IMG/VR virus record: IMGVR_UViG_3300026484_000007
Location: 62,001 to 126,000 of that record
Length of the DNA: 64,000 nucleotides
Strand: one strand, 5' to 3'
Origin: a virus
Shown here: piece by piece, positions 5,097 to 57,495 of the stretch
Layout of the letters: the number at the start of each line of letters is the position of its first letter
How positions within the stretch are numbered: position 1 is the stretch's first letter
Notes under the pieces: generated by a model
What the model saw: only the letters and a program-made list of their open reading frames with translations
The model's database searches: none
What the model was told of the DNA's origin: nothing
Program-made: the position numbers and the translations under genes

Positions 5097-6821
5097 ATGG
5101 CTGAAATAAATGATACCTCAGTTTTAAATGCGAATGCAGGGATGAGTATTTATGATGTAAATTTTAATTTAATGCAATTCGCTAGCGTTTATAACGATTT
5201 CATTGATACTGTAAATCCTAAAACTATGATTCTTCAGCGAATCGTTAATAAAGAAATTCTATCTGTTGAAATTGAAAATGTCGCAAGTATTAAAAATAAA
5301 TTAAAAAGCGATATTGATAAAGAAAAACAAGATAGAATTGAAGCAGATAATGAAATCAAAAAAACCATTGAAGAAAAAACCGAAGAATTCGATGCTAAAA
5401 TAGCAGCTGAAGCTAAAAAAAGAATCGATCAAGACGTAATTCTTGATAATAAAATCGATACTGAAATTTCTAGAGCTAAAGATGCAGAAAATACTTTAGA
5501 TACAAAAATTATTAATGAATCTAACCGAGCTCTTGAAGCAGAAAAAGATCTTAATGATAAAATTAGTGCTGAAGCTTCACGAGCGAAATCTGTAGAAAAT
5601 CAATTAAGAACTGATTTAGATGCCGAAACTCTTAGAGCTAAAACGACTGAAGATCAATTAAGATCTGATTTAGATGCTGAAGTTCTTAGAGCTAAATCAG
5701 AAGAATCTAAATTAGATTCAAAGATTGAAGACGAAATTACTCGAGCAACTTCTGTTGAAAATGAATTAAGATCTGATTTAGATACAACTATGGATAAATT
5801 AGATCAAGAAATCGATAGAGCTAAAAAAGCTGACGGTTCTTTAGTATTTAACGATACAATCAAAAATGACGATGGAAGTACTCCAGATAACTTAACTGAC
5901 GCAATTAATGACGTTGATGAAAGATACGAGCATATCACATCTTCATTAATTCAAGATCTTTCTTTTGAGTCTAAATTTAGGCAAGAAGAAGATGAAAAAT
6001 TACAAGAAGAAATTTCTAATGAAATTGCTAGAGCTAAAGATGCAGAAGGACCATTAAAATTCAATGATGATATCAGAAATGAAGATGGTACTTTAGCAAC
6101 AGATCTAACAAACGCAATTAATATTGTGGATGATAGATTAAATAATACTACTAAAGCATTAAAAGATAAAGATGAAAAAATTCTTGAATACATTGATGCT
6201 CAAATTGAAAAAATTATAAATGGATCTCCAGAAGCTTTAGATACTTTAAAAGAATTAGCTGATGCGCTTGGAGATGATCCGCAATTTGCTACAACTATTT
6301 TAGATAAAATTTCTAAATTAAATTCTAAAATAGGTAATTTAGATGAATTAAACACTGATGATAAATCTAGTTTAGTAAAAGCATTAATTGAAGTTCAATT
6401 AGAAATCAATAATGAAGCTAAAATTAGAGTCGCTGCAGATAACACTTTAAATACTAAAATTTTAAATGAAGAAGCTAGAGCTAAAGATGCAGAAAAAGAT
6501 TTAGATTATAAAATCGAAAAAGAAATCGATAGAGCAATCAATGAAGATAAAATTCTTGATGATAAAATCGATGAAGAAATTATTCGAGCGAAAGAAGCTG
6601 AAGGTACTCTTGTATTCGAAGAAAACATAAGAAACCACGATGGTACTAAACCAGATAATTTAACTGATGCAATTAATGCAGTTAATAAAACTTGTTTTGA
6701 GAGAATTGATCAAGCATTTGATGCGTTAGATAACTTTGGATCTTTTATAGATACGTTAGATTCTTCTGAACCAAGTATTGACATAGATTTCTTAAAAATA
6801 GAAATCAAAAAATTATTCTAA
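5097..6821 (+). CDS. Second repeat-rich tail fibre protein
   Basis: A 574-residue predicted fibre or fibre-tip protein. It shares two module types with the preceding giant fibre: RAKDAEG/EIDRA coiled-coil repeats, and three NxDG...DNLTDAIN glycine modules near residues 265, 325 and 515. Near residues 375-400 it carries a clear tail-fibre cassette (SPEALDTLKELADALGDDPQ), a widespread motif in phage tail fibres; this is the best support for the assignment. The N-terminal 60 residues are non-repetitive and may anchor to a partner. The start has AAGGAG seven bases upstream. The gene follows a hairpin terminator and is followed after 10 bp by another coiled-coil gene, so they probably share transcription. 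Confidence 0.75.
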   Translation: MAEINDTSVLNANAGMSIYDVNFNLMQFASVYNDFIDTVNPKTMILQRIVNKEILSVEIENVASIKNKLKSDIDKEKQDRIEADNEIKKTIEEKTEEFDAKIAAEAKKRIDQDVILDNKIDTEISRAKDAENTLDTKIINESNRALEAEKDLNDKISAEASRAKSVENQLRTDLDAETLRAKTTEDQLRSDLDAEVLRAKSEESKLDSKIEDEITRATSVENELRSDLDTTMDKLDQEIDRAKKADGSLVFNDTIKNDDGSTPDNLTDAINDVDERYEHITSSLIQDLSFESKFRQEEDEKLQEEISNEIARAKDAEGPLKFNDDIRNEDGTLATDLTNAINIVDDRLNNTTKALKDKDEKILEYIDAQIEKIINGSPEALDTLKELADALGDDPQFATTILDKISKLNSKIGNLDELNTDDKSSLVKALIEVQLEINNEAKIRVAADNTLNTKILNEEARAKDAEKDLDYKIEKEIDRAINEDKILDDKIDEEIIRAKEAEGTLVFEENIRNHDGTKPDNLTDAINAVNKTCFERIDQAFDALDNFGSFIDTLDSSEPSIDIDFLKIEIKKLF

Positions 6822-15564: not shown

Positions 15565-16062
15565 TTAAATTATAAATAATTTATCATGTAGTCTATGAAG
15601 TTTATTAAAGAACGATCTCGAAAGTTTTTGATATTCTTTATCATGAATGATATCTTCTGATACTAACGAGATGTCTATCATTTTATCTAACATTTCTACC
15701 AATTCCTGCAACTTTTCTTTTTCATCATAATCTCCTTCATGACGAGTACTAGTCCCCCAAATTTTTTCTATCAATGATAATTTATGTCTAATCACTAATA
15801 ATAAAAAAACAGGATCCGATTGACAATCAATTTTTAAAATAGGATCCCACTTTTTAATATTATTTTTATAAATCCATTTATCTCTTAAATAAGTATCCCA
15901 ATGATACTCAACCATCATTTTTAAAGTTAAATAATAATCTTTGATCGTTTTTAATAATACTTTAATCAAAGTCACTACTAAACTTTCATTTTTAAAAAAA
16001 TTCCAAAGATCTAAAATTGATCTTTTTATTTTAGATTTTAATCTAATAAAATATCTTACCAT
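15565..16062 (-). CDS. Hypothetical protein downstream of polymerase fragments
   Basis: 165 residues, helical and basic in the first half, no recognised family. It overlaps the exonuclease-fragment gene by 7 bp and is the last gene of the - strand block, so it should be co-translated with the polymerase pieces. It has no family B motif and is not the missing palm. Confidence 0.55.
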   Translation of the reverse strand: MVRYFIRLKSKIKRSILDLWNFFKNESLVVTLIKVLLKTIKDYYLTLKMMVEYHWDTYLRDKWIYKNNIKKWDPILKIDCQSDPVFLLLVIRHKLSLIEKIWGTSTRHEGDYDEKEKLQELVEMLDKMIDISLVSEDIIHDKEYQKLSRSFFNKLHRLHDKLFII

Positions 16063-17156
16063 GCATTTTCCTTTTCTTCATGAACGTAATATATTTCCTT
16101 ATTAAATTTATTGTTTCTTATTAATTGATTTTTATCTACTAAATAATGTTTAGTATTTCTATAATTAAAAATAAAACTTCTTCCAATAAATACTGCTTTA
16201 ACACTAGCATTATTATATTTAGCAATGGCATATAATTGTTCAACGAATTGTAATTTTTCATCTAATTTTACTGTTAAGATAACGTCAAGCATGTTGTAGG
16301 CTGCAAATCTTGCAGGGTTTTCTAAATAAACTTTATTGAAATCTCCTTCGAGATCTAATTTATTAATTTTTAACTCAACTTCAGCGATAGTATCTAATTT
16401 ATAATTAGGTAAAGATTTACCCATACCTGATCCTCCCGAATCAACGGGTTGGTATAATTTTAATATATCTACCGCAGTTCTATCGGCGATCTCGTATGTT
16501 ATTTGACCATATTTTTTAATACTAAAATTTGATATGATTTTAAAAGCATTTTCTTCGCCAATTAATTTAATTAATCTATTGATAGTATAAGGGTCGTCGA
16601 AGCGAGAGCTGTTGAATCCAATCAAAAACAGCGTTCCTATATCTTCGATGGTTTTAAAAAAATTAATAATCATAGTGGCTTCATCGTCAAATACGTTAAT
16701 AACTATTTCTAAATTTTTTATATCATACATTTTATTTTTTTCGCAAGATTCTTTATAAATTTTTTCTATCTCTTTTTTAAATTCTTCTGCATTATCAAGA
16801 AGCTGATGAAACTTAGAACTTTTATTTCTAAGAAAATCTATATAAATAGTATTATTAATATTATTATAATAAGCTATTGATGTTATTTCAAATTCTACTG
16901 AGATTGGATCAGGTGCTTTCTTTGGATCGAATCTTGTTTCGATATCGTAAAAAGTTTTATTCATAACTTTTCTATCCCAGAACTCTTGATCTTTATCTCC
17001 GTATTCATTTAAATATTTAAAGAAAAATAATTCTCCGGGAGAAACTTCAGTGTTATAAAATTGATAAAATTTTAAATTATCCGTTTTTAAGTTATCTATT
17101 ATATTTCTAAATGAGTCTCCATAAACTACATGCCCTGGAATTTCAATTGCTTTCAT
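16056..17156 (-). CDS. Family B DNA polymerase, N-terminal and 3'-5' exonuclease fragment
   Basis: A 366-residue protein matching the N-terminal plus proofreading domains of T4-type DNA polymerase (gp43). Exo I is FYDIETRF (Asp71, Glu73), Exo II is GFNSSRFDDPY (Asp187) and Exo III is YNMLD (Tyr287, Asp291), so all catalytic carboxylates are present. The region before Exo I also follows the gp43 layout. The chain stops shortly after the helix following Exo III, just before motif A (D-x-x-SLYP) would begin; no polymerase active site is present. The gene carrying motif C lies immediately upstream in transcription, so the order of pieces is reversed relative to an intact polymerase. It should act by assembling with the other fragments. 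Confidence 0.85.
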   Translation of the reverse strand: MKAIEIPGHVVYGDSFRNIIDNLKTDNLKFYQFYNTEVSPGELFFFKYLNEYGDKDQEFWDRKVMNKTFYDIETRFDPKKAPDPISVEFEITSIAYYNNINNTIYIDFLRNKSSKFHQLLDNAEEFKKEIEKIYKESCEKNKMYDIKNLEIVINVFDDEATMIINFFKTIEDIGTLFLIGFNSSRFDDPYTINRLIKLIGEENAFKIISNFSIKKYGQITYEIADRTAVDILKLYQPVDSGGSGMGKSLPNYKLDTIAEVELKINKLDLEGDFNKVYLENPARFAAYNMLDVILTVKLDEKLQFVEQLYAIAKYNNASVKAVFIGRSFIFNYRNTKHYLVDKNQLIRNNKFNKEIYYVHEEKENAW

Positions 17157-17169
17157 TAATTCTCCTTTT

Positions 17170-18165
17170 TTAGATTCCTGATCTTATTTGGATCTCTTCA
17201 TCAAATAAATCTTTAAATTGATCTAATTTCATATCAATATTAAAATTCATAATTGTATCAAAATCTAATTCGATATCTAGTTCTTTAAAGATCTTTAAAA
17301 GATCATTCTTGTCTTTTTCATTTAAACCAACGGGTATGCTTATAACATTTAATTTTTTATTAATTTCATCTTTATTGATCATATATGGAGATAGTTCGTT
17401 GTTTTTATTTTTTAAATTATAAATATCTAAAATTTTTTTAAGATTATTTAATTTAACTTGAACGACGATGAAACTTTCTCCAGGTCTTAGATTATCTTTA
17501 AAAATTAAATTATAAAACATTGCTCCTTTAACTGGCATCGGTAAAGATTTAAATTCTTTCACTCCCCATTTTTTAGGAATTCCAAAGTATTCGATGTCAA
17601 GATTTTTAATAGCTAACTCTAGTTTTTTAGAATAGATCTTTTTTAGATCATTAAAAATTTTATAATATAATTCTTCTTCCGTTGTAATATCAAAGTTCTT
17701 CGTTAAATTAAAATACACTTCATTTAATAAATCAAATGTTATTTTCGTCACGTCCGATTTAACGATTTGACCTCCTGTTTTTTTAATCTTTCCTTGATCG
17801 TAATATGTTCCTTCATTCCATAATACTAAAAGCGAATAATATTTTTTACCACGGAAGAATCCACGCACTGCTACAACTTCGCTTTTAAAATCCATTAAAT
17901 TATACTTTGGATTTAAATTAAATTTATCTTGAAGATTTTCGTTTAAAAATTTTCCATAATACCCATTTGATGTTAAAGCGATATCTTGTGTATAATCCAC
18001 AGTCTTTTCAATATTTTCAAATTTTTCAAATGGTAATTTAATTTTCAGATACGCTGAGTCAGTATCTGAATATAAAGTCTCTTCTGCTCTGTCAACTGTT
18101 TCTATCCACAAAGGAGCGAAATCAAAGACTTCGCTGTGAAAATCATAATTGTTAATTTTTTCCAT
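17170..18165 (-). CDS. Family B DNA polymerase, C-terminal palm and thumb fragment
   Basis: 331 residues corresponding to the last third of a T4-type gp43. Motif C is YSDTDSAY (Asp34, Asp36), one of the two catalytic aspartate sites. A segment GFFRGKKYYSLLVLWNEG (about 103-120) matches the KKRYALNV region, and MPVKGAMFYN (about 215) matches the HIRGVLTY segment of the thumb. The C-terminus fits the gp43 thumb end. Motifs A and B are missing: the chain begins only about 30 residues before motif C. So the polymerase is cut between motifs B and C, and the central palm/fingers piece must be encoded outside this window. Confidence 0.85.
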   Translation of the reverse strand: MEKINNYDFHSEVFDFAPLWIETVDRAEETLYSDTDSAYLKIKLPFEKFENIEKTVDYTQDIALTSNGYYGKFLNENLQDKFNLNPKYNLMDFKSEVVAVRGFFRGKKYYSLLVLWNEGTYYDQGKIKKTGGQIVKSDVTKITFDLLNEVYFNLTKNFDITTEEELYYKIFNDLKKIYSKKLELAIKNLDIEYFGIPKKWGVKEFKSLPMPVKGAMFYNLIFKDNLRPGESFIVVQVKLNNLKKILDIYNLKNKNNELSPYMINKDEINKKLNVISIPVGLNEKDKNDLLKIFKELDIELDFDTIMNFNIDMKLDQFKDLFDEEIQIRSGI

Positions 18166-18175
18166 TAATTTTCCT

Positions 18176-19066
18176 TTAAAAGAAAACGTTAGTTAAATAA
18201 TATTTATTTAACTCTTCTAAAAACTGATCTTTCCAAGATCCTTTATCATCTTTTTCTTTTAATTTATTTTTTACTTCATTGAATATTTTCTCTGCAACTA
18301 TTATATCTTTATGATCGCCCCATTTGAATACATATCCTTTTTTATTTCTTTCTCTGAAAATAAAAAAGGTATTATAAAATATAATTTTTTCATATAAAAG
18401 ATTAAACGGATCTTCAAAAGATCTATAAAAGATCTCTAAAAATTTTATTATAAAAAGATCAATCAATCCCATTGAAATCATTGGCAATAATTCATTTTCT
18501 ATAATTTCGAATAGTTCTTTTTCATTTATTTTATCTTTAAATTTTTTAGATTCTTTAGATAATTCTGTCGTTAATAACATAGAAAATAAAAAATCATCAG
18601 GATGTTTATAAGTTATAGCAATTCTAAAAATATTAATGAAATAAAAAACGATGGAAGAGAGATCTTTTTTAGATCTCTCTTCCAATAAAACAAACGGCGA
18701 ATTTAAATTTAAAAAACTTTTATTCGATGAAAGAATTTTTAAAATCTCTTGAGAGAATATTTTAGACCAATTTTGATCTTTTTTATTTAGCATCCATTTA
18801 GGATCTATAAGAGTATTTAATTCTATTTGCGACTCAATTAATTTTTCATAAAGAATTGGGTCAATACCCTTTTCTTTAATTAAACTTGAAATTTTATCAT
18901 CTTGCTCTTGAATAATTTTACTAATTGATTTTTTTGCTGGGCTTGCAATTCCATTAATATTATCTACACCAGATACATTAATTATATTTTTTACAACTGA
19001 GTTTACTTGATCTACTAAAGATTCATTCTGAGCAATTATATTCTTCTGTATATCGTTTGTCAACAT
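18176..19066 (-). CDS. Hypothetical protein between Rad50-like and polymerase genes
   Basis: 296 residues, mostly alpha-helical, with hydrophobic helices around 135-160 and 190-215 but no clear transmembrane pattern and no recognised motif. The start overlaps the end of the Rad50-like ATPase gene by 44 bp and has AAAGGAG. The context (ATPase, polymerase fragments) suggests a replication or recombination accessory protein; this is inference. Confidence 0.6.
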   Translation of the reverse strand: MLTNDIQKNIIAQNESLVDQVNSVVKNIINVSGVDNINGIASPAKKSISKIIQEQDDKISSLIKEKGIDPILYEKLIESQIELNTLIDPKWMLNKKDQNWSKIFSQEILKILSSNKSFLNLNSPFVLLEERSKKDLSSIVFYFINIFRIAITYKHPDDFLFSMLLTTELSKESKKFKDKINEKELFEIIENELLPMISMGLIDLFIIKFLEIFYRSFEDPFNLLYEKIIFYNTFFIFRERNKKGYVFKWGDHKDIIVAEKIFNEVKNKLKEKDDKGSWKDQFLEELNKYYLTNVFF

Positions 19067-20978
19067 ATTTAACTCCTTTACATAATGGACAGATTACTAT
19101 TCCTTGTTGTTCAAGGATTTCATGAAATTTAATATCTAATTCATTAACTTTATTTTTTAGATAAATTAAATTTTCATTATTTTTCTGAATCTGATCTTTT
19201 AAAGATCTTTTATCTCTTAAATAATTTTCTATAGTTGTTTTGTCTTCCATAATTAAATTAAATTTACTTTTTATATTTAAGATTTTTTCAATTTTATTTA
19301 CTGTATCTTCAAAGGATCTTTTTTGGATCATTAAGTGATCTTCAAAAGATCTTTTTTGTCTTAATAGATTTAAAAAATAATTTAATCTTTGGAACTCTTC
19401 AATGAAAATTATTTTTTTATTTAATTCATCTTTTCTTTTTAATTGATCTTCAAAAGATCTTTTTTGGATCCTTGCTTGATTTTTAAAATTTAAAAATGAT
19501 TTTAAATATTCTAACCATTGATATTCCGCTTTAATTTCCCCAACCCTTTCAATTTTTTTATTAATATTATTCAATTGATCTTCAAAAGATCTTTTTTCGA
19601 TCCTTAATGTTTCTAAAGTTTTTTTATCATTAAATAATTCATTAATATATTCTATAATAAATTTCAATTCTAATATTTTTAAATCTTTTTGATATTGAAG
19701 CAATTCTGTTTTAATTGTATTGATTTCTTTATCGTAAGATTTAATTTCTTGATTGAGTTCAATGATTTCATTTTTAAAATCTGAAATTGCAAGGCTAATG
19801 TTTTCAGTATTAAATAAAAAGTTAAATACTTTTTCAATATCTGAGCTTTTAGATCCAACCATAAATAATTGATCGTATTGAGAACTATAAGCGATTTTTT
19901 CTGTTTGATTTCTCAATTCGCCTTTGATATTTTTATATAATTTTTTTATATCAAGATGTTTAAAACCTAACTTAGATACTGCTTCTTTAATTACAGAATC
20001 TGCAAGATTTTTACCTAAGTATTGCTCTCCTTCGATTTCAAATATAACTTTTTTAGACTTATAAATCATTACTAAAGGATCTTCAAAAGATCCATCTTCG
20101 TTTTCTTTATAAAATTCAATCTTAGAAACTTTAGCTCCGAGTCTTAAAAATCTTTCTTTAAAATCATTAAATAATAAAGCTTTAATTGCTCTAAGACTTG
20201 CACTTTTACCACAATTGTTTGGCCCTGATATAACAACGAAACCTTTATAATAAAATTCAATATCTTTTATACTTTGAAAATTTTGAATTCTTACTTTGTA
20301 TCCATTTAAGATCTTATCATTTGGAAGATTAGTTTTTTTATCTTCAATGAAGACAGTTTTTAAATCATTTTCATAAAAATAATTTAATTGATAATGAATA
20401 TGAGAACCAACGTTTAAATCGTCTGTTTGAGATACTAATACTAATGTAAAATCGTATTCTTCAGCAAACTTTCTTAAGAATAAACTTAATCTTTCTCGGT
20501 ACTGTGGAGAAACTTGAGCAAAGCTTTCATCAAAAATATAAAATTTATTTTTGCTATAAAAGTATCCTATTAAGATCTTAAAAAGAACACTAATGACACT
20601 AAGTACTCCACCACCGTTAGTTTCAAGTAATTCATCGTTTTTGCCTATGTATTTATCGCCTTGATAAAATGTAATATTGTATTTTATATTCTTAGAAGTA
20701 CTTTTTACTTCTTGCTCAATATTGATTCTAATATCATCCTGAAAAATATCTTTTAACGCTGAATTTATAATATTTAATATAAATTCTTTTTTGTATTCTA
20801 ATTTATAATTTTTTAAATATTCTAAAATAGATACGCTAAGATTCCTTAACCTTATTTTTTCAGATAAAGAAAAAAGAAGAGATTCTCGCTGAGCGAGAAT
20901 CTCTTCTTTTTGAATGATTAGATTTTTTAATTGATTAATCTGAACTTGCAGTTCCTGACTCTTCTTCATTTGATACAT
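19023..20978 (-). CDS. Circularly permuted Rad50/SMC-like ATPase with C-terminal zinc hook
   Basis: A 651-residue ABC-type ATPase related to Rad50/SbcC/T4 gp46, with its halves in reversed order. Residues 1-45 are a short coiled coil. Residues 50-215 form the normally C-terminal lobe: signature NGGGVLSVI (121-129), Walker B FYIFDES (146-152) and VLVSQTDD (180-187). Residues 225-390 form the normally N-terminal lobe: VRIQNFQSIKDI (229-240), Walker A GPNNCGKSA (252-260) and a Q-loop-like SSQYDQ (365-370). A coiled coil of about 225 residues follows, ending in CPLC (Cys630, Cys633), the zinc-hook motif. In a normal Rad50 the hook is mid-chain. The coiled coil holds four exact copies of KRSFED, each encoded by a GATC palindrome. 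Expected role: DNA end processing with an Mre11-like partner, which is not identified here. Confidence 0.8.
   Translation of the reverse strand: MYQMKKSQELQVQINQLKNLIIQKEEILAQRESLLFSLSEKIRLRNLSVSILEYLKNYKLEYKKEFILNIINSALKDIFQDDIRINIEQEVKSTSKNIKYNITFYQGDKYIGKNDELLETNGGGVLSVISVLFKILIGYFYSKNKFYIFDESFAQVSPQYRERLSLFLRKFAEEYDFTLVLVSQTDDLNVGSHIHYQLNYFYENDLKTVFIEDKKTNLPNDKILNGYKVRIQNFQSIKDIEFYYKGFVVISGPNNCGKSASLRAIKALLFNDFKERFLRLGAKVSKIEFYKENEDGSFEDPLVMIYKSKKVIFEIEGEQYLGKNLADSVIKEAVSKLGFKHLDIKKLYKNIKGELRNQTEKIAYSSQYDQLFMVGSKSSDIEKVFNFLFNTENISLAISDFKNEIIELNQEIKSYDKEINTIKTELLQYQKDLKILELKFIIEYINELFNDKKTLETLRIEKRSFEDQLNNINKKIERVGEIKAEYQWLEYLKSFLNFKNQARIQKRSFEDQLKRKDELNKKIIFIEEFQRLNYFLNLLRQKRSFEDHLMIQKRSFEDTVNKIEKILNIKSKFNLIMEDKTTIENYLRDKRSLKDQIQKNNENLIYLKNKVNELDIKFHEILEQQGIVICPLCKGVKYVDKRYTEEYNCSE
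19305..19602 (-). repeat. GATC palindromes repeated inside the coiled-coil coding region
   Basis: Four near-identical blocks of the form AAAAAGATCTTTTGAAGATC on the - strand encode KRSFED (about 19,307, 19,337, 19,450 and 19,580); a fifth variant lies near 19,190. The same palindrome type forms terminators elsewhere. Confidence 0.7.
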
Positions 20979-21418: not shown

Positions 21419-22807
21419 TCACTCCTTTCTTTCTAAATTTTCTAAAGCTTTTTTTCTGAGAATACAACTACCACATTCACCACATGGTTCTCCATTTTTA
21501 GGATAATAACATGAGAATGATAAATTAAGAATTTCATAAAATTTATTTTTACCAAATTCTTTTACGAATTCTTTGATCATATTTGTCTTCGTTCTATTGA
21601 TATATGGAGCTTTCATCCCAAACCCCGTGAAGAATTTTCCACCATGATTTAATACATTTTCCATATTATCCATCCAAGCAGAATTATTATCACCGAAAAC
21701 TTGTCCTTCTGATAAATTTAATCCGAAGACAATTAATCCTAAACTTACTCCATCTTTTTCTGCGATAGATTTAATTATTTCTGCAAAAATAGAATTTCTA
21801 AAAGGAATATAACTTAAATTTTCTTCAGTTTCTCTTTCATCACCTTTTGATGATTTATCCGTAAGTTTTAAGTTAGTATCTAAAATAGATGCTAATCCAT
21901 TAATTATATTTTTTACATCAATAATTCTGAAAGAATATTGATAATCTGGAAAGTCTTTTTTTACTAATTCAATAAACTTTTCAGTAGCAGCAATTTCTTC
22001 TTGAGTACTATTATTACCATAATCAAAATAAATAAAATTAATTTTGATTGCATCTTCATTGAAAATCAACGAAATGTGTTTTTCGATTTCATCAATTACT
22101 TTATAAGCACTTAATGAAATATCCATTCCACCACTAAAACTTATATAAATATTTTTATATACGTCTGATGGCCTATCGCAATGAGCTTCTGTTTTTATAA
22201 ATACACCATCCTTAAAATTAAATTGTGGATCCATGCTATAAATTTTTAAATTTTCGTGTTCATGTTTCCAAAGACCCATTCCTTTATTGACGATATTGTA
22301 TTCGTCGAAATCTGGGAAAATCTCAAGATATGTATATAATCCTTTAATGAAATTTTCTGGTAAATCAGAATGAAACATTATTGCTTCAGTATCAACTGTT
22401 AATTCTTTATTTAATTTTTTTTCAACTTCTTTATCATTCGAAATTGTTCCATGAACCCAATACCAATCATGTTCATTGATAAATGGAGGCATTGTTTCTA
22501 ATCCAGATTTTTCCATTTCAGGTTTCTGTCTAGAAAATAATACTAAGTGACATTTTTGAAATAAAAAAAGCGATTGTTTTTTTAATTCTTCAAAAATTTT
22601 ATCAAAAAAATCATTGTACGTATCTTCAAAAGATTCGCCTTTGCTGATTATAGATTTATAACTACTATACGGATTTCCTAACCACAATAATGTGAAAGAA
22701 TAACCATCTCCACCTTTTTTATTCAATTCATATTCTAATAATTTTTTATTAGATAATAAATCCATTATATTCTTAATTTGATCATTGCTGTAAAGTATTT
22801 GACACAT
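21419..22807 (-). CDS. Gat-QueC: glutamine amidotransferase fused to QueC-like domain
   Basis: A 462-residue fusion. The ORF opens Met-Cys, and Cys2 would be the N-terminal nucleophile of a class II glutamine amidotransferase; WVHGTISND (about 117-125) fits that domain. From about residue 218 comes a QueC-type domain: SFSGGMD (223-229) is the PP-loop ATP pyrophosphatase motif, and the C-terminal CxxCxxC block (PCGECGSC, with an upstream Cys) matches the QueC zinc site. Gat-QueC proteins convert preQ0 to archaeosine in Crenarchaeota tRNA, and phage 9g with deoxyarchaeosine DNA encodes one. Here it probably amidates preQ0 carried in DNA. A DpdA gene is in the same window. The ATG has ideal AAAGGAG spacing, which supports the Met-Cys start. 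Confidence 0.85.
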   Translation of the reverse strand: MCQILYSNDQIKNIMDLLSNKKLLEYELNKKGGDGYSFTLLWLGNPYSSYKSIISKGESFEDTYNDFFDKIFEELKKQSLFLFQKCHLVLFSRQKPEMEKSGLETMPPFINEHDWYWVHGTISNDKEVEKKLNKELTVDTEAIMFHSDLPENFIKGLYTYLEIFPDFDEYNIVNKGMGLWKHEHENLKIYSMDPQFNFKDGVFIKTEAHCDRPSDVYKNIYISFSGGMDISLSAYKVIDEIEKHISLIFNEDAIKINFIYFDYGNNSTQEEIAATEKFIELVKKDFPDYQYSFRIIDVKNIINGLASILDTNLKLTDKSSKGDERETEENLSYIPFRNSIFAEIIKSIAEKDGVSLGLIVFGLNLSEGQVFGDNNSAWMDNMENVLNHGGKFFTGFGMKAPYINRTKTNMIKEFVKEFGKNKFYEILNLSFSCYYPKNGEPCGECGSCILRKKALENLERKE

Positions 22808-22867: not shown

Positions 22868-22893
22868 AAAGAGATCTTTTTTAGATCTCTTTT
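22868..22893 (-). terminator. GATC-stem hairpin terminator
   Basis: AAAGAGATC and GATCTCTTT pair around TAAAAAA, overlapping the stop codon of the kinase-phosphatase gene and followed on the - strand by a T-rich stretch. Confidence 0.65.
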
Positions 22894-24791
22894 TGCTCTT
22901 CTTCAATTTCTTCATTTTCTTCATCAGATAAAATGAATAAACCTCTTGCATGAATACTTAATGAATCATATGCTCCAGTTTTAAAAACTGAATTTTTAAA
23001 ATTTACTGCATAAATTTTTTCACCAGTATTTATTTCTTTTACTTCTTTTACATGAATTCCTCTATGTTTTCTTGCAGTCGCAAGAATTCCATGAGTTTCA
23101 AGATATTTTTTATCTTCTTCCAAAAGCTTTTCTAATCTTTCAGATTGTAATCTTAATTTTAAAGTATTAGGTTCTCTTTTAGATACAACATGATAGTATC
23201 TGAAATCTTCATCAATAACCATAGCTCTTAGACCAGTATCTTTTCCTCCAAAATCAGCATCTCCATTTAAATTAAAAACTCTAGAATTTTCATCCCCGTA
23301 ATTATATGGAAGCCAATCTACGTTTCTATGTCCATGAATTTGAAATTGATTTTCTTTAGTATGTTTTTCCCAAGTTTTTTTGATAACTTGCTCATCTCCA
23401 TATTTACCAATTCCTCTGATAATTTCTTCAGTTTTTAAAAAGATTTTTGGCGGCTGAATAATTCCTCCATGAGTAAATAAAATTTCTTTTCCTTTGAAAT
23501 CTATCCAAGCCATTTGAGCTAATTTAGAATAAAAATCTTTAATTGCTTTTAATTCTTTATCTTTATAATTTTCATAGATAAAATAAAAGGTTTTTCTTGT
23601 TTGTATTGAAATTAACCTTCTTAATTCTTTATCATAGTATTCTTCGATCTTTAAAAGATTAAATTTTATTCTTTCTAGTTTTTTAAGATTTTCATTGTAA
23701 GATCTAACATCTCTATAAATTTGAATAATTGAATCAAATATATCTGGATCAGATTCTTTGATTACATCTAAATTAAAATATTTTTGAAGTTTGTCTTTAG
23801 ACCAATCTTTTTTTAAATTAAAAAGAACGTTTTTAATTACTGACAGATCTTTTGGATCTGCAAAAGAACTTAAATGTTTTTCTTCGAAAAGTTCTTTATT
23901 TACCTCGAATCTTTTTTCGATCTCTTTTAACTTTTCATTAATTGATTTGATTATAGATTTATAATCATCAATTTTAGATTTAGCATCAATGTACTCATTG
24001 AAATATGTAAATCCTAATTCATGATTTCCTTGTAATAGCATTACATTTTCGTATTGAAAAATTTCCATAAAGAAATCAATTGTCTTCTTAAGATTTTCTT
24101 CGTCTGGAGCTCTATCAAAATAGTCTCCTAAAAATATCCAAAAATAATTAGGATCTTTTATAGATTCAATATTTTCTTCTTTTTTAATTTTATTAATTAA
24201 CTCTTCTAATTCATCGTAACAACCATGAACATCTCCGATAGCAATTACTTTTTGATATTGATTAAAATCAAATGATTTTTCTTTAGATTCTTTCCATTTA
24301 GAAAATTCATCCGGTTTAATTACTTCAACCCAACTTGGAATGTTTTGAGTTCTTTGTCTTTCAAAAATATTTTTAATTGCTTCTTCTGGAACATATTTAT
24401 GTGGTTCAAAAGATTCTAATCTTGATTTATTTCTTTTTAAAATTTCTTCTAAAGAAAGATCTCTGAAGTCAACTAAAGTTACTCTGTATCTGTATTTTTT
24501 AGCTAACTGTCTATATCTATTAATTAATTTAGAAGAACTATGAGTAGCATCGATTACCGTAAAATCTCCTCTCTTCATTCTTTCTTCTAAAAACGCAAAA
24601 ACAAGTTCCCAAACCCTTTTATCGTTTTTTGAGGAAATTGTTTTTATTAGAGAGTCTGGTTGAGAAACCGGACTCTCCATTTTAAGTCTAATATCATCTG
24701 GTTCAATAGCAAATGGTCTAAGACCATTTTTATTAATCCAAGTACTTTTGCCTGATCCAGGCGCCCCACATGTTAAAATTAAATTTCTCAT
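22881..24791 (-). CDS. Pnkp-like RNA repair kinase-phosphatase with a ligase-like stub
   Basis: A 636-residue multidomain enzyme. Residues 1-165 are a polynucleotide-kinase-type P-loop domain (GAPGSGKS, 9-16). Residues 180 to about 500 are a calcineurin-like phosphatase: GDVHG (186-190), GDYFDR (222-227), GNHE (255-258), then THGG and HGHRN further on. A helical insert sits near 265-400. This order matches the kinase-phosphatase part of bacterial Pnkp, which heals broken RNA ends. The C-terminal 90 residues end with NFKNSVFKTGAYD..ARGLFI, resembling the opening of an Rnl1-type RNA ligase, but the chain stops before a nucleotidyl-Lys motif, so a ligase is not complete. The start was moved to MRNLIL: the Shine-Dalgarno AAGGAG precedes this ATG and overlaps the upstream TTG-initiated extension. 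Confidence 0.8.
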   Translation of the reverse strand: MRNLILTCGAPGSGKSTWINKNGLRPFAIEPDDIRLKMESPVSQPDSLIKTISSKNDKRVWELVFAFLEERMKRGDFTVIDATHSSSKLINRYRQLAKKYRYRVTLVDFRDLSLEEILKRNKSRLESFEPHKYVPEEAIKNIFERQRTQNIPSWVEVIKPDEFSKWKESKEKSFDFNQYQKVIAIGDVHGCYDELEELINKIKKEENIESIKDPNYFWIFLGDYFDRAPDEENLKKTIDFFMEIFQYENVMLLQGNHELGFTYFNEYIDAKSKIDDYKSIIKSINEKLKEIEKRFEVNKELFEEKHLSSFADPKDLSVIKNVLFNLKKDWSKDKLQKYFNLDVIKESDPDIFDSIIQIYRDVRSYNENLKKLERIKFNLLKIEEYYDKELRRLISIQTRKTFYFIYENYKDKELKAIKDFYSKLAQMAWIDFKGKEILFTHGGIIQPPKIFLKTEEIIRGIGKYGDEQVIKKTWEKHTKENQFQIHGHRNVDWLPYNYGDENSRVFNLNGDADFGGKDTGLRAMVIDEDFRYYHVVSKREPNTLKLRLQSERLEKLLEEDKKYLETHGILATARKHRGIHVKEVKEINTGEKIYAVNFKNSVFKTGAYDSLSIHARGLFILSDEENEEIEEEQKEI

Positions 24792-25261
24792 TTTTCTCCT
24801 TTTTTCCAAAATGATACTTCTTCAAAATAAAGACAATCATCGAAATCTTTTACGAATCTGTATTTCTCATCTAATTCGTATCTATTTTCGATAATGATAT
24901 CTTTATGAGCATATCTTTGAAGGATCATATCAATCCCAGTATTATAAATTCTCATGATCTTTTCATGATCAATGTCGATGATATTGTAATCATTAACAGA
25001 TTGAGAATTTTCTCCCGAAGCGTTTAAATCAATATTTAAATTAATATTTAAATCGCATTCTTCAATAAGTTCTTCATCAGTTGGTAAAACAATTTCATCA
25101 CTACCTTCTTTTTCAAAATCATAATCTCTAATGTGATTATACAATAATTCTTGCGCCGTCAAAAGACAAAGCGCATCTTCAGTTTCATCAGTAACGAAAG
25201 CTACTGTAATAATATCTTGATTTTCTTCCATTAAAGCTATAGCTCTTTGATTTTTAAACAT
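24788..25261 (-). CDS. Hypothetical acidic protein
   Basis: 157 residues, strongly acidic, with an Asn/Leu/Asp repeat stretch (NINLNIDLN) around 75-83; no recognised family. It overlaps the kinase-phosphatase gene by four bases (ATGA), a sign of coupled translation. Function unknown. Confidence 0.6.
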   Translation of the reverse strand: MFKNQRAIALMEENQDIITVAFVTDETEDALCLLTAQELLYNHIRDYDFEKEGSDEIVLPTDEELIEECDLNINLNIDLNASGENSQSVNDYNIIDIDHEKIMRIYNTGIDMILQRYAHKDIIIENRYELDEKYRFVKDFDDCLYFEEVSFWKKGEK

Positions 25262-27056: not shown

Positions 27057-27168
27057 AATAAAAAGGATCTAAAAAAGATCCTTTAATAAAAAGGATCTAA
27101 AAAAGATCCTTTAATAAAAAGGATCTAAAAAAGATCCTTTAATAAAAAGGATCTAAAAAAGATCCTTT
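27057..27168 (-). repeat. Four tandem 28-bp hairpin units (stacked terminators)
   Basis: Four exact copies of a 28-bp unit, each containing AAAGGATC, a TAAAAAA loop and GATCCTTT. Each unit can fold alone, and neighbours can pair with one another. The last unit is next to the stop codon of the JAB-like gene. Probably a reinforced terminator made by slippage. Confidence 0.85.
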
Positions 27169-39952: not shown

Positions 39953-40213
39953 TTAAATTTCATTTAGTAAAGTATTTAATTCTTCTTCTTTTTCTTTAAT
40001 GATCTTTTGAAGATCATCTTCGTTTATCGTTCCGTATTTATCTAAAATATAAGATTCCATTTGTTGAATGTTTTGCTCAAGAACTCCAATGTTAATTTCG
40101 GTTTCTTGAATTTGCTTTTGAAGATTTTCTTTTTCTGCGTTGTATCTATTTAAGATCTCATCTAACTGAGCACTATCTATAGTGTTAGCATTGTTAGTAT
40201 TATCTGGTATCAT
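39953..40213 (-). CDS. Small coiled-coil protein
   Basis: 86 residues, nearly all one or two long amphipathic helices (ENLQKQIQETEINIGVLEQN), acidic. It overlaps the YqeY-like gene by four bases and has a strong AAGGAGGT site; a terminator follows. Function unknown. Confidence 0.6.
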   Translation of the reverse strand: MIPDNTNNANTIDSAQLDEILNRYNAEKENLQKQIQETEINIGVLEQNIQQMESYILDKYGTINEDDLQKIIKEKEEELNTLLNEI

Positions 40214-55332: not shown

Positions 55333-57495
55333 CTAAAGCTCTTCATTTTCATCTTCGAATTTCATTCCGAAAACATGAAGGGCATTATTTAGAGTTTTCT
55401 TAGTCACTGAATTATATTTATCTTTAAGATAATATTCACCATCTCTAATATATTTAATAATAAAGTTTTGCTTTTCATCTAAAGCATCAGATTTAATTGT
55501 ATAAATTTCTTTTAGAACAGCATTATCTTCTTTATGCGCTAATAACGCTGCAAGTGATTGCCAACTTACGTGAGCTCCACCACCTTTTTTTCTACCTCTT
55601 ACTGGCTGACCAGTGATTTTTGAATACGCACTTGTAAAACTAACACTATTAAATTTTCCAAAACTTGTATGATGTAATTTTAGCATATAATTCCAAGAGC
55701 TAAATAACATCAACTCTGTTTCATTATAATCATTAAATGGATCTTTAAATCCATAATTTTTTCTAAGCCATTCTAATAATTCAGATGAATATTTGATTTT
55801 TTGCTTACCTATATTTAGGTCGAATCTTTTCGCGTATGGTTTAATAAAAGTATTCATAAGCTCTTTATATGAAATATTCGGGAAGTTTGGGACATATAAA
55901 TAAAAATTGTTTTTATTTATATCATTTATAAATAATTTCGCAAATTCTTCATTATCTAAATTATTAATGATATTTTCAACATCTTGATAATAATCAAGAT
56001 CATATTTTTTTATAAAATTTTCATTTATAAAATTAATTTTTTCTTTTAGAGTTTCTATCGTTTCCGATCCTTCTAAGATCTTTTTAACAGTATTCTCTAC
56101 ATCGATAATGATTTTTGAAACCGCTAATTCAAATACAACTCCCCAGTTATTTCTTCCAGGAATTCCTAATGAATTAAATATCATATCAAAAGGTTTTCCA
56201 GTGCTTGGATCTTTTGGCATTAACTCATCTGGAATAATCATTGCAATAGTTGCTTTTCCAGCAAATAAGTTAGTGAATTTATCACCTCTTGTTGTGTTTA
56301 AATAAATCTTTGAATCTAATTCAATTAGAAAATCCATATCATTAAATTCTTTGATTAAGTATTCTTCCATCAACATTTGCTTATAATGCTTATATTGTTT
56401 TTCCATTGATAAATACTGTGAATAAATTTGCTCAGTTAATTCTTTAGCTTTTTCTTTATTCATTCCAATATTTAAAAATGAATCATAAACATTTTTCTTC
56501 TTTTTAACATTAGCTATAATTAAATCTTCTAATTCATTAATTATACCTCTTGTGTAAATATATTTTTCATCAAGTTTTCTTATTTCTTTAATAAGATCTT
56601 TTAAAGATTCGTCCGTAAGTTCTTGATCCATATCTATCGATCTTAATTCTCTAAGAATATCTTCATTAAATATATGAAGTTTCATAGTAACAACATCGGA
56701 ATTTAATAATCCATCAATTTTTTTAGTAAAAAATTTAGATGGAGTTTTATCAGCATTGATAATTTCTGATGAAAAGTGTTTACTAGTATCAATTTCAAGA
56801 TACTTGATATAATCATCTTTCACATGCATTCCAACATAAGGTAGATATGTTTCAATTTCTTTTTCTTCATCTCTTACTATTTTAAAATATTTCCAATGTT
56901 TTAGAATTGGAATATAAGTTTTTTTAATTACAGTCTTTTGAGCTTTTTTTGAAAAACTTTCAGAAATAACAATTGCATCATCTGCGTTGTATCCAAAGAA
57001 TGAAGTGAATAAAATGTTTGCTCTGTATCCTATTTTAGGTAATTTATTTTCAATATTCATTCCGGTATAATCATAAAGAACTTCTCCTTTTTTGAAGAAT
57101 TTTTTATCTATTTTATATTTTAAATCTAATGAATACTCGATTAACTTTCTACCTTCTGGCAAATGTTTAGTAATCATTTTTTTCTGATTTTTATAATAAA
57201 TTACTAAAATATTATCATCGTTATGTAACACAATTCCATCATCTTCCGCGAATTCCACGAAAGGAGATTGGATTGTACTAATCTTTTGAAATTCTTTATC
57301 AATCATAAAAGGAGTATCAACATTCTTTGATAACATTGGTTGAACTCCTTGTTTGTAAGACATATTTAATCTATTATTGTCTACTGTTTGTGCGAAAGGT
57401 ACGAAAATTTCGATTTGAGGACTGAAAATTGTTTTTACTAACTTTTGTGTTTTTTCCGTTTCTTTTTTCATCTCTTTTGCTATTTCTTTTGCCAT
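55333..57495 (-). CDS. Split RNA polymerase beta subunit, C-terminal part
   Basis: 720 residues equivalent to the second half of bacterial RpoB. Near residue 40, DNNRLNMSYKQGVQPM matches the DDANRALMGANMQRQAVP segment. Near 400-455, RGDKFTNLFAGK and PFDMIFNSLGIPGRNNWG match the GDKMAGRHGNKG and D-I-V-LNPLGVPSRMN-x-G segments that line the active centre. Near 630-662, KKGGGAHVSWQSLAALLAHKED and YTIKSD match the RFGEMEVWALEAYGA..LTVKSDD end. The phage enzyme therefore has a standard beta core split just after the rifampicin-pocket region. The N-terminal part is encoded directly upstream. Confidence 0.88.
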   Translation of the reverse strand: MAKEIAKEMKKETEKTQKLVKTIFSPQIEIFVPFAQTVDNNRLNMSYKQGVQPMLSKNVDTPFMIDKEFQKISTIQSPFVEFAEDDGIVLHNDDNILVIYYKNQKKMITKHLPEGRKLIEYSLDLKYKIDKKFFKKGEVLYDYTGMNIENKLPKIGYRANILFTSFFGYNADDAIVISESFSKKAQKTVIKKTYIPILKHWKYFKIVRDEEKEIETYLPYVGMHVKDDYIKYLEIDTSKHFSSEIINADKTPSKFFTKKIDGLLNSDVVTMKLHIFNEDILRELRSIDMDQELTDESLKDLIKEIRKLDEKYIYTRGIINELEDLIIANVKKKKNVYDSFLNIGMNKEKAKELTEQIYSQYLSMEKQYKHYKQMLMEEYLIKEFNDMDFLIELDSKIYLNTTRGDKFTNLFAGKATIAMIIPDELMPKDPSTGKPFDMIFNSLGIPGRNNWGVVFELAVSKIIIDVENTVKKILEGSETIETLKEKINFINENFIKKYDLDYYQDVENIINNLDNEEFAKLFINDINKNNFYLYVPNFPNISYKELMNTFIKPYAKRFDLNIGKQKIKYSSELLEWLRKNYGFKDPFNDYNETELMLFSSWNYMLKLHHTSFGKFNSVSFTSAYSKITGQPVRGRKKGGGAHVSWQSLAALLAHKEDNAVLKEIYTIKSDALDEKQNFIIKYIRDGEYYLKDKYNSVTKKTLNNALHVFGMKFEDENEEL

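Follow-up and report, generated by a model that had tools for sequence, protein, structure and literature searches.

Rad50 and the SMC proteins are regarded as single chains, which extend along one arm, reverse at a hook or hinge and come back. Rearranged viral versions are known: Mre11 is fused to Rad50 in Mimivirus (R555) and in Bacillus phage 0305phi8-36, and the fusion of this phage was reported to be without one P-loop segment (PMC3175470). In the excerpted part of a review of jumbo phages, SbcC and SbcD are described as nearly universal, and neither a split nor a permuted SbcC is mentioned (PMC7824862). In the open-licence literature, we found no account of Rad50, SbcC or SMC in a split or permuted form, and novelty is claimed here provisionally.

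Here, we analysed a stretch of 64,000 nucleotides (the window), which comprises positions 62001-126000 of a 272,602-base IMG/VR phage record with about 26% GC. It contains an ORF for a protein that resembles Rad50, SbcC and T4 gp46 in its ABC N- and C-lobes, its CxxC hook, its helical arms and a partner gene of Mre11/gp47 type, but differs from them in a reversed order, a C-terminal position of the hook, unequal arms, a Gln in the H-loop and a degenerate signature. With the Mre11-Rad50 fusions it shares that viral Mre11/Rad50 genes are rearranged, and one of the split loci described below (L074) indeed fuses Mre11 to a split N-half; those fusions, however, link Mre11 with Rad50, and the Rad50 lobes are not inverted in them.

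Order of the lobes in the window protein

The original prediction described a Rad50/SMC-type ATPase in which C-lobe, N-lobe, arm and CPLC follow each other, as if the chain had been cut at the hook and joined at the head. We found a chain that runs from a short coil through the C-lobe, the N-lobe and a long arm to the CxxC (Table 1), with the motifs at residues 121, 146-151, 252-259 and 630-633, and both the profile matches and the AlphaFold2 model agree with this order. The signature is degenerate (NGGG, not LSGG); NGGGVLS is unchanged in the first three permuted proteins that we compared, and the GG is retained in aligned split C-halves. Glycine 257 of Walker A is nearly invariant in a 51-row alignment, and a Q-loop QYD can be read in the N-lobe. 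The H-loop His is replaced by Gln (VSQT) in the sequences of all five permuted proteins. With this Gln and a signature without LS, ATP hydrolysis may be altered.

Table 1. Features of the permuted Rad50-like ATPase, ORFs discussed with it and its permuted homologues (positions in the window)
Feature	Residues or length	Position	Strand	Basis or remark
ORF, permuted Rad50-like ATPase	651 aa	19023..20978	(-)	ATG start; no internal stop; profile matches, AlphaFold2
Short coiled-coil arm into C-lobe	2-55	20814..20975	(-)	AlphaFold2 helix 2-79, pLDDT about 90
ABC C-lobe	56-216	20331..20813	(-)	phrog_15167 match; split-only HMM, E 3e-17; Foldseek 1xew_Y and 3kta_B
Degenerate ABC signature, NGGGVLS	121-127	20598..20618	(-)	Sequence; alignments
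Walker B with catalytic Glu, FYIFDE	146-151	20526..20543	(-)	Sequence; alignments
Linker from C-lobe to N-lobe, new head joint	217-226	20301..20330	(-)	Between the two HMM matches; coil in AlphaFold2 model
ABC N-lobe	227-388	19815..20300	(-)	Pfam AAA_23; hhalign against canonical N-lobes, prob 97, E 7e-11
Walker A, GPNNCGKS	252-259	20202..20225	(-)	Sequence; alignment
Long helical arm, break at 496-506	392-624	19107..19805	(-)	AlphaFold2; first break of homologue L005 at the same distance
C-terminal zinc-hook-like knuckle, CPLC, between two short strands	630-633	19080..19091	(-)	Sequence; AlphaFold2
Upstream ORF	160 aa	20935..21417	(-)	L005 and L002 have a 104/105-aa ORF in this place, before permuted Rad50; weak similarity only
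Candidate third component, helix-FGT/YGT-helix	86 aa	39953..40213	(-)	Profile likeness to split-locus small coil
Permuted homologue L002	604 aa			Ends CQTC
Permuted homologue L005	638 aa			Ends CPHC
Permuted homologue L193	677 aa			Ends CSHC
Permuted homologue L194	660 aa			Ends CTKC

Both lobes were recovered by profile comparison. Pfam AAA_23 matches residues 228-434 (E 1.4e-11), and phrog_15167, a family of free-standing 211-aa phage ATPases, matches residues 7-189 (E 1.9e-11). HMMs built from split phage proteins only (see below) match residues 9-188 at 3e-17 and residues 228-431 at 1.5e-16. Using hhalign, residues ~225-410 align with canonical N-lobes at a probability of 97 as against 0.5 for C-lobes, while residues 1-220 prefer canonical C-lobes weakly (prob 13, E 0.002) over N-lobes (prob 1). 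At the sequence level, the tie of residues 1-220 to Rad50 C-lobes runs via the split proteins, since the split C-half matches the end of Rad50. Judged by these matches, the domain assignment is well beyond chance.

The AlphaFold2 model of the window protein, based on the 51-row alignment, had a mean pLDDT of 81.6, with both lobes mostly at about 85-95. It comprises a helix (2-79), the C-lobe (83-216), the N-lobe (227-388) and two helices (392-495 and 507-624) on either side of the break at 496-506, and the CPLC is flanked by strands at 627-629 and 636-638. The model of the homologue L005 has the same lobes, and its first arm break lies ~105 residues into the arm. The best Foldseek matches in the PDB are heads of Rad50 and SMC proteins, including P. 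furiosus Mre11-Rad50 (9a9j), the B. subtilis SMC head (5h66), Rad50 (1f2u and 1ii8) and the SMC chains 1xew_Y and 3kta_B (TM-scores 0.69 and 0.64, normalised by target), which we take to be C-terminal lobes of SMC heads. In a viral library, free C-halves, i.e. phage proteins of 215 and 219 aa, match with TM 0.72 and 0.66. From AlphaFold2 and Foldseek, residues 1-216 of the monomer are thus predicted to form an ABC C-lobe and residues 227-388 an N-lobe, and the assignment to the Rad50/SMC-type ATPases is upheld by AAA_23, phrog_15167, the split-only HMMs and the Foldseek heads alike. The cut at the hook and the joint at the head were likewise borne out, the former as a property common to a whole split-gene family.

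Is this order peculiar to one assembly? The same fused order with a C-terminal CxxC occurs in four further IMG/VR records, so that five independent phage records, including the window, carry it, with 40-55% identity among the proteins (window protein to L002 and L005, 40-44%; L005 to the other four, 41-55%). An assembly artefact, which the original prediction had named as a possible refutation, is rejected by this recurrence. AAA_23 scores above its cut-off once in each of the five records, at the permuted ORF, and no second, canonical Rad50 was found above this cut-off in any of the five. A search for permuted relatives in prokaryote genomes gave no more than one match, of 60 residues, close to the end of a contig in a Lachnospiraceae MAG.

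The split phage Rad50 family

Two scans of IMG/VR yielded 151 loci, and the relatives are described here among ~130 viral loci. These relatives are split Rad50s: the N-half gene encodes the N-lobe, the arm and a C-terminal CPxC hook, and the product of the C-half gene is a C-lobe of ~210 aa with a coil of ~55 residues, while Mre11 is encoded nearby; many of the surveyed loci hold both halves together with Mre11. In NCBIfam comparisons, the split N-half aligns at the start of Rad50 and the split C-half at its end (804-893 of 895). The CxxC lies within the last 60 residues in 73 of the 76 non-redundant N-halves, and the cut at the hook is therefore common.

The components correspond to phrog_16465 (N-half, 'exonuclease'), phrog_15167 (C-half, 'ATPase') and phrog_18563 (a 77-aa small coil, 'unknown'), exemplified by gp32, gp35 and gp34 of Bacillus phage vB_BboS-125, respectively. 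In Tunturiibacter phage Tunturi_5, both halves are free, and the N-half (485 aa) terminates in CGKC. The 485-kb phage LR745208 encodes the N-half (ending in CPVC), Mre11 and the C-half within one region, and this set recurs in vB_BboS-125 and in Microcystis phage Mvi-JY20. In the vB_BboS-125 genome (L026, NC_048735), an Mre11-like ORF of 326 aa occupies 5424-6404, a gap that is unannotated in the public record. At L074 6090-8408, a single ORF of 772 aa contains Mre11 and a split N-half with a CPTC end, followed by the small coil and the C-half.

The split and permuted proteins are alike in their two lobes, the short coil of the C-half, the C-terminal CxxC of the N-half, an Mre11-like gene in the genome and, in most cases, a similar small helical protein, for which the permuted phages have a candidate. 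They differ in that the split halves are separate genes, usually with the N-half first, whereas the window protein is one chain with the C-half first, and in that the H-loop His, a Gln in the permuted proteins, is kept in the split examples checked (four aligned). A tree built from both lobes separated the split and permuted proteins from canonical SbcC/gp46 with a support of 100/99; in it, the permuted proteins were monophyletic (100/100) and their clade stood beside Tunturi_5 (93/81). The tree favours a split ancestry of the permuted clade (93/81, 87/85), while a separate clade for the split proteins was not rejected by an AU test (p 0.20). When many N- and C-halves were aligned jointly with the full protein in MAFFT, one set was misplaced, and row numbers were chosen to prevent this. 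On these comparisons, the hook cut is a property of the split family, and what sets the permuted clade apart is the C-then-N joining at the head. Most likely, the permuted protein derived from a split-gene Rad50, a form widespread in phages: a Rad50 gene already interrupted at the hook would have had its halves joined at the head, C-half before N-half. Separate C-half and N-half genes that are directly adjacent in C-N order, as expected for a simple fusion, were not found among the surveyed loci.

Arms, hook and a small helical protein

The arms had been predicted to be unequal, with about 225 and 45 residues; the AlphaFold2 model gives similar values of about 230 and about 55, the latter being the first part of helix 2-79. 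For the further suggestion that a partner completes the arm, there is a conserved helical candidate of ~80 aa, but it cannot fill the longer arms by simple end-to-end pairing. In the split family, a protein of 77-98 aa, phrog_18563 in Bacillus phages, is encoded in 98 of 104 loci, some of them near-duplicates, and follows the plan helix, G-x-x-P or FGV-x-T turn, helix. In the window, the ORF at 39953-40213 has relatives in three other permuted-Rad50 phages, and this set, present in four of the five permuted records, aligns with the small coils of the split loci (hhalign prob 94, E 1.4e-7), a score that coiled-coil composition can inflate. We consider the ORF a good candidate for the counterpart of the small coil. 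The 296-aa ORF downstream of the permuted gene (18176-19066), which 'KEKGIDPILYEKL' had suggested as the missing arm piece, was discarded (HMM E 2.4, no family match). The upstream 160-aa ORF is weakly similar to the 105-aa ORF of L002 (BLAST E 0.23).

Across the split loci, the arm varies from 137 to over 330 residues, while the small coil (~80) and the C-half coil (~55) are near-constant; arm length and small coil length are correlated with a rho of -0.60. A one-to-one pairing of the arm with the small coil plus the C-half coil was rejected, as the lengths disagree in most loci. Longer arms therefore need another partner, either themselves or a twin molecule. In the models of the window protein and L005, the pLDDT is high over the first ~60 residues of the arm and lower further out, which would follow if the base alone had a partner within the chain. 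The distances from Walker A to the CxxC in split N-halves cluster near 275, 322, 364, 428 and 475, which suggests that the arms are built of ~45-residue units with IxVP-type breaks.

We tentatively put forward a Rad50 made of three separate phage pieces, namely the N-lobe with an arm that ends in the hook at its C-terminus, a short helical protein that would complete part of the arm, and the C-lobe with its short coil; the permuted protein would be the two-piece version. If this is true, the ring could open or be put together at the hook with no need for a continuous chain to break. It is also possible, if short of probable, that the arm is self-contained and folds back in helical hairpin units, which would place the CxxC near the head instead of at the tip and leave the small coil protein a mere accessory. 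The break at 496-506 lies near the middle of the window protein's arm, and the P+G content of short-armed split N-halves is highest at the midpoint of the arm (0.16 as against 0.01-0.05 elsewhere); the variation in arm length beside near-constant coils and the clusters of ~45 residues also fit such a fold. However, GxCPxCG around the CxxC is the sequence of an apical Rad50 hook, the distal arm of the model is of low confidence, and single-break units of ~45 residues in odd and even numbers would bring the hook alternately to the base and to the tip.

Pairs of GATC exactly 11 bp apart (GATC-N7-GATC, with an AT-rich centre) occur 72 times across the window, as against at most 10 at any other distance (22 and 33 bp) and 0-1 at 11 bp for six control words. 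They are found in coding and intergenic DNA, e.g. at 19193-20092 and 27066-27168. Within the arm (19193-19595, minus strand), in-frame copies of the GATC palindrome encode recurring KRSFEDQL-like peptides, as if a short DNA element had spread into the coiled coil of the permuted Rad50. The intergenic gap at 27066-27168 holds four tandem 28-bp copies containing AAAAAGGATCTAAAAAAGATCCTTT, possibly hairpins or binding sites.

Genomic setting and proposed function

Besides a QueC-like protein and a kinase-phosphatase, the window codes for topoisomerase II subunits, an RNA polymerase beta-type protein and pieces of a split family B DNA polymerase. From this gene content we assign the source to a jumbo phage that carries genes of its own for replication and transcription. 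The DNA polymerase is distributed over three genes, with an exonuclease part and a YSDTDS part (16056-17156 and 17170-18165, minus strand) and a middle part elsewhere (G000:C1:4802-6073); within the window, the C-terminal piece comes before the N-terminal piece. The RNA polymerase beta-type protein (55333-57495, minus strand) matches Rpb2 domain 6 (E 1e-19), which makes it probable that a multi-subunit RNA polymerase is encoded by the phage itself. Directly upstream of the permuted gene, 21419-22807 and 22881-24809 (minus strand) encode a QueC-like 7-cyano-7-deazaguanine synthase and a polynucleotide kinase-phosphatase, the former hinting at 7-deazaguanine DNA modification.

An Mre11 homologue is present in four of the five permuted records, the fifth being a 35-kb fragment. 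In L002 and L005, it lies two genes upstream of the permuted Rad50; in the window genome, the Mre11-like nuclease (144866-145879 of the record, Metallophos Pfam match) is more than 60 kb away from it, outside the operon. We regard it as highly probable that the window protein is a phage Rad50/SbcC (gp46-type) ATPase that works with an Mre11/SbcD-type nuclease, with a probable origin from a split gene. We infer that DNA ends would be bound, tethered and resected by the permuted ATPase and the nuclease in the course of repair and of recombination-dependent replication. The chain would begin at what is usually the middle of Rad50, and its short N-terminal helix (residues 2-55) would pair with the start of the N-lobe arm in a coiled coil of about 55 residues next to the head. 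The two lobes, with a linker of ~10 residues between them, would form one ABC half-site, and two heads would close on ATP, as in Rad50. The CxxC knuckle at the end of the long arm would share one zinc with a second molecule, and the small coil, if it has a role, might complete part of the arm.

An ABC-type ATPase without a link to Mre11, either RecN/RecF-like, of a defence type (GajA, MADS3) or an SMC-like loop extruder, appears unlikely to us. The changed H-loop, a weak NCBIfam match to MADS3 (8.7e-5) and the presence of RecF, GajA and SMC heads among the Foldseek matches could be read in this way, but the C-terminal CPxC, the Mre11 homologues in four of the five genomes (near the permuted gene in L002 and L005), the loci that split relatives share with Mre11, and a region coding for polymerase, QueC and kinase-phosphatase all argue for the nuclease-linked Rad50. 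That two gene fragments were joined fortuitously, or that the ORF is a functionless chimera of assembly, is very improbable: the order is unlike that of any Rad50 reported in the literature searched, but the motifs on either side of the joint are conserved in five independent records with 40-55% identity, none of which has a further Rad50-like ATPase above the cut-off.

In summary, we found a stable lineage of phage Rad50-like proteins whose chain is interrupted where it would turn and is joined at the head, and beside it a widespread family that is fully cut, which suggests that continuity of the chain through the hook is seemingly dispensable in these phages. They provide a natural test of the hook and the arms, in which an apical turn that links two arms can be set against a tip that is merely bridged by zinc. 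For phage families now labelled as unknown function, ATPase or exonuclease, the comparison offers probable identities.
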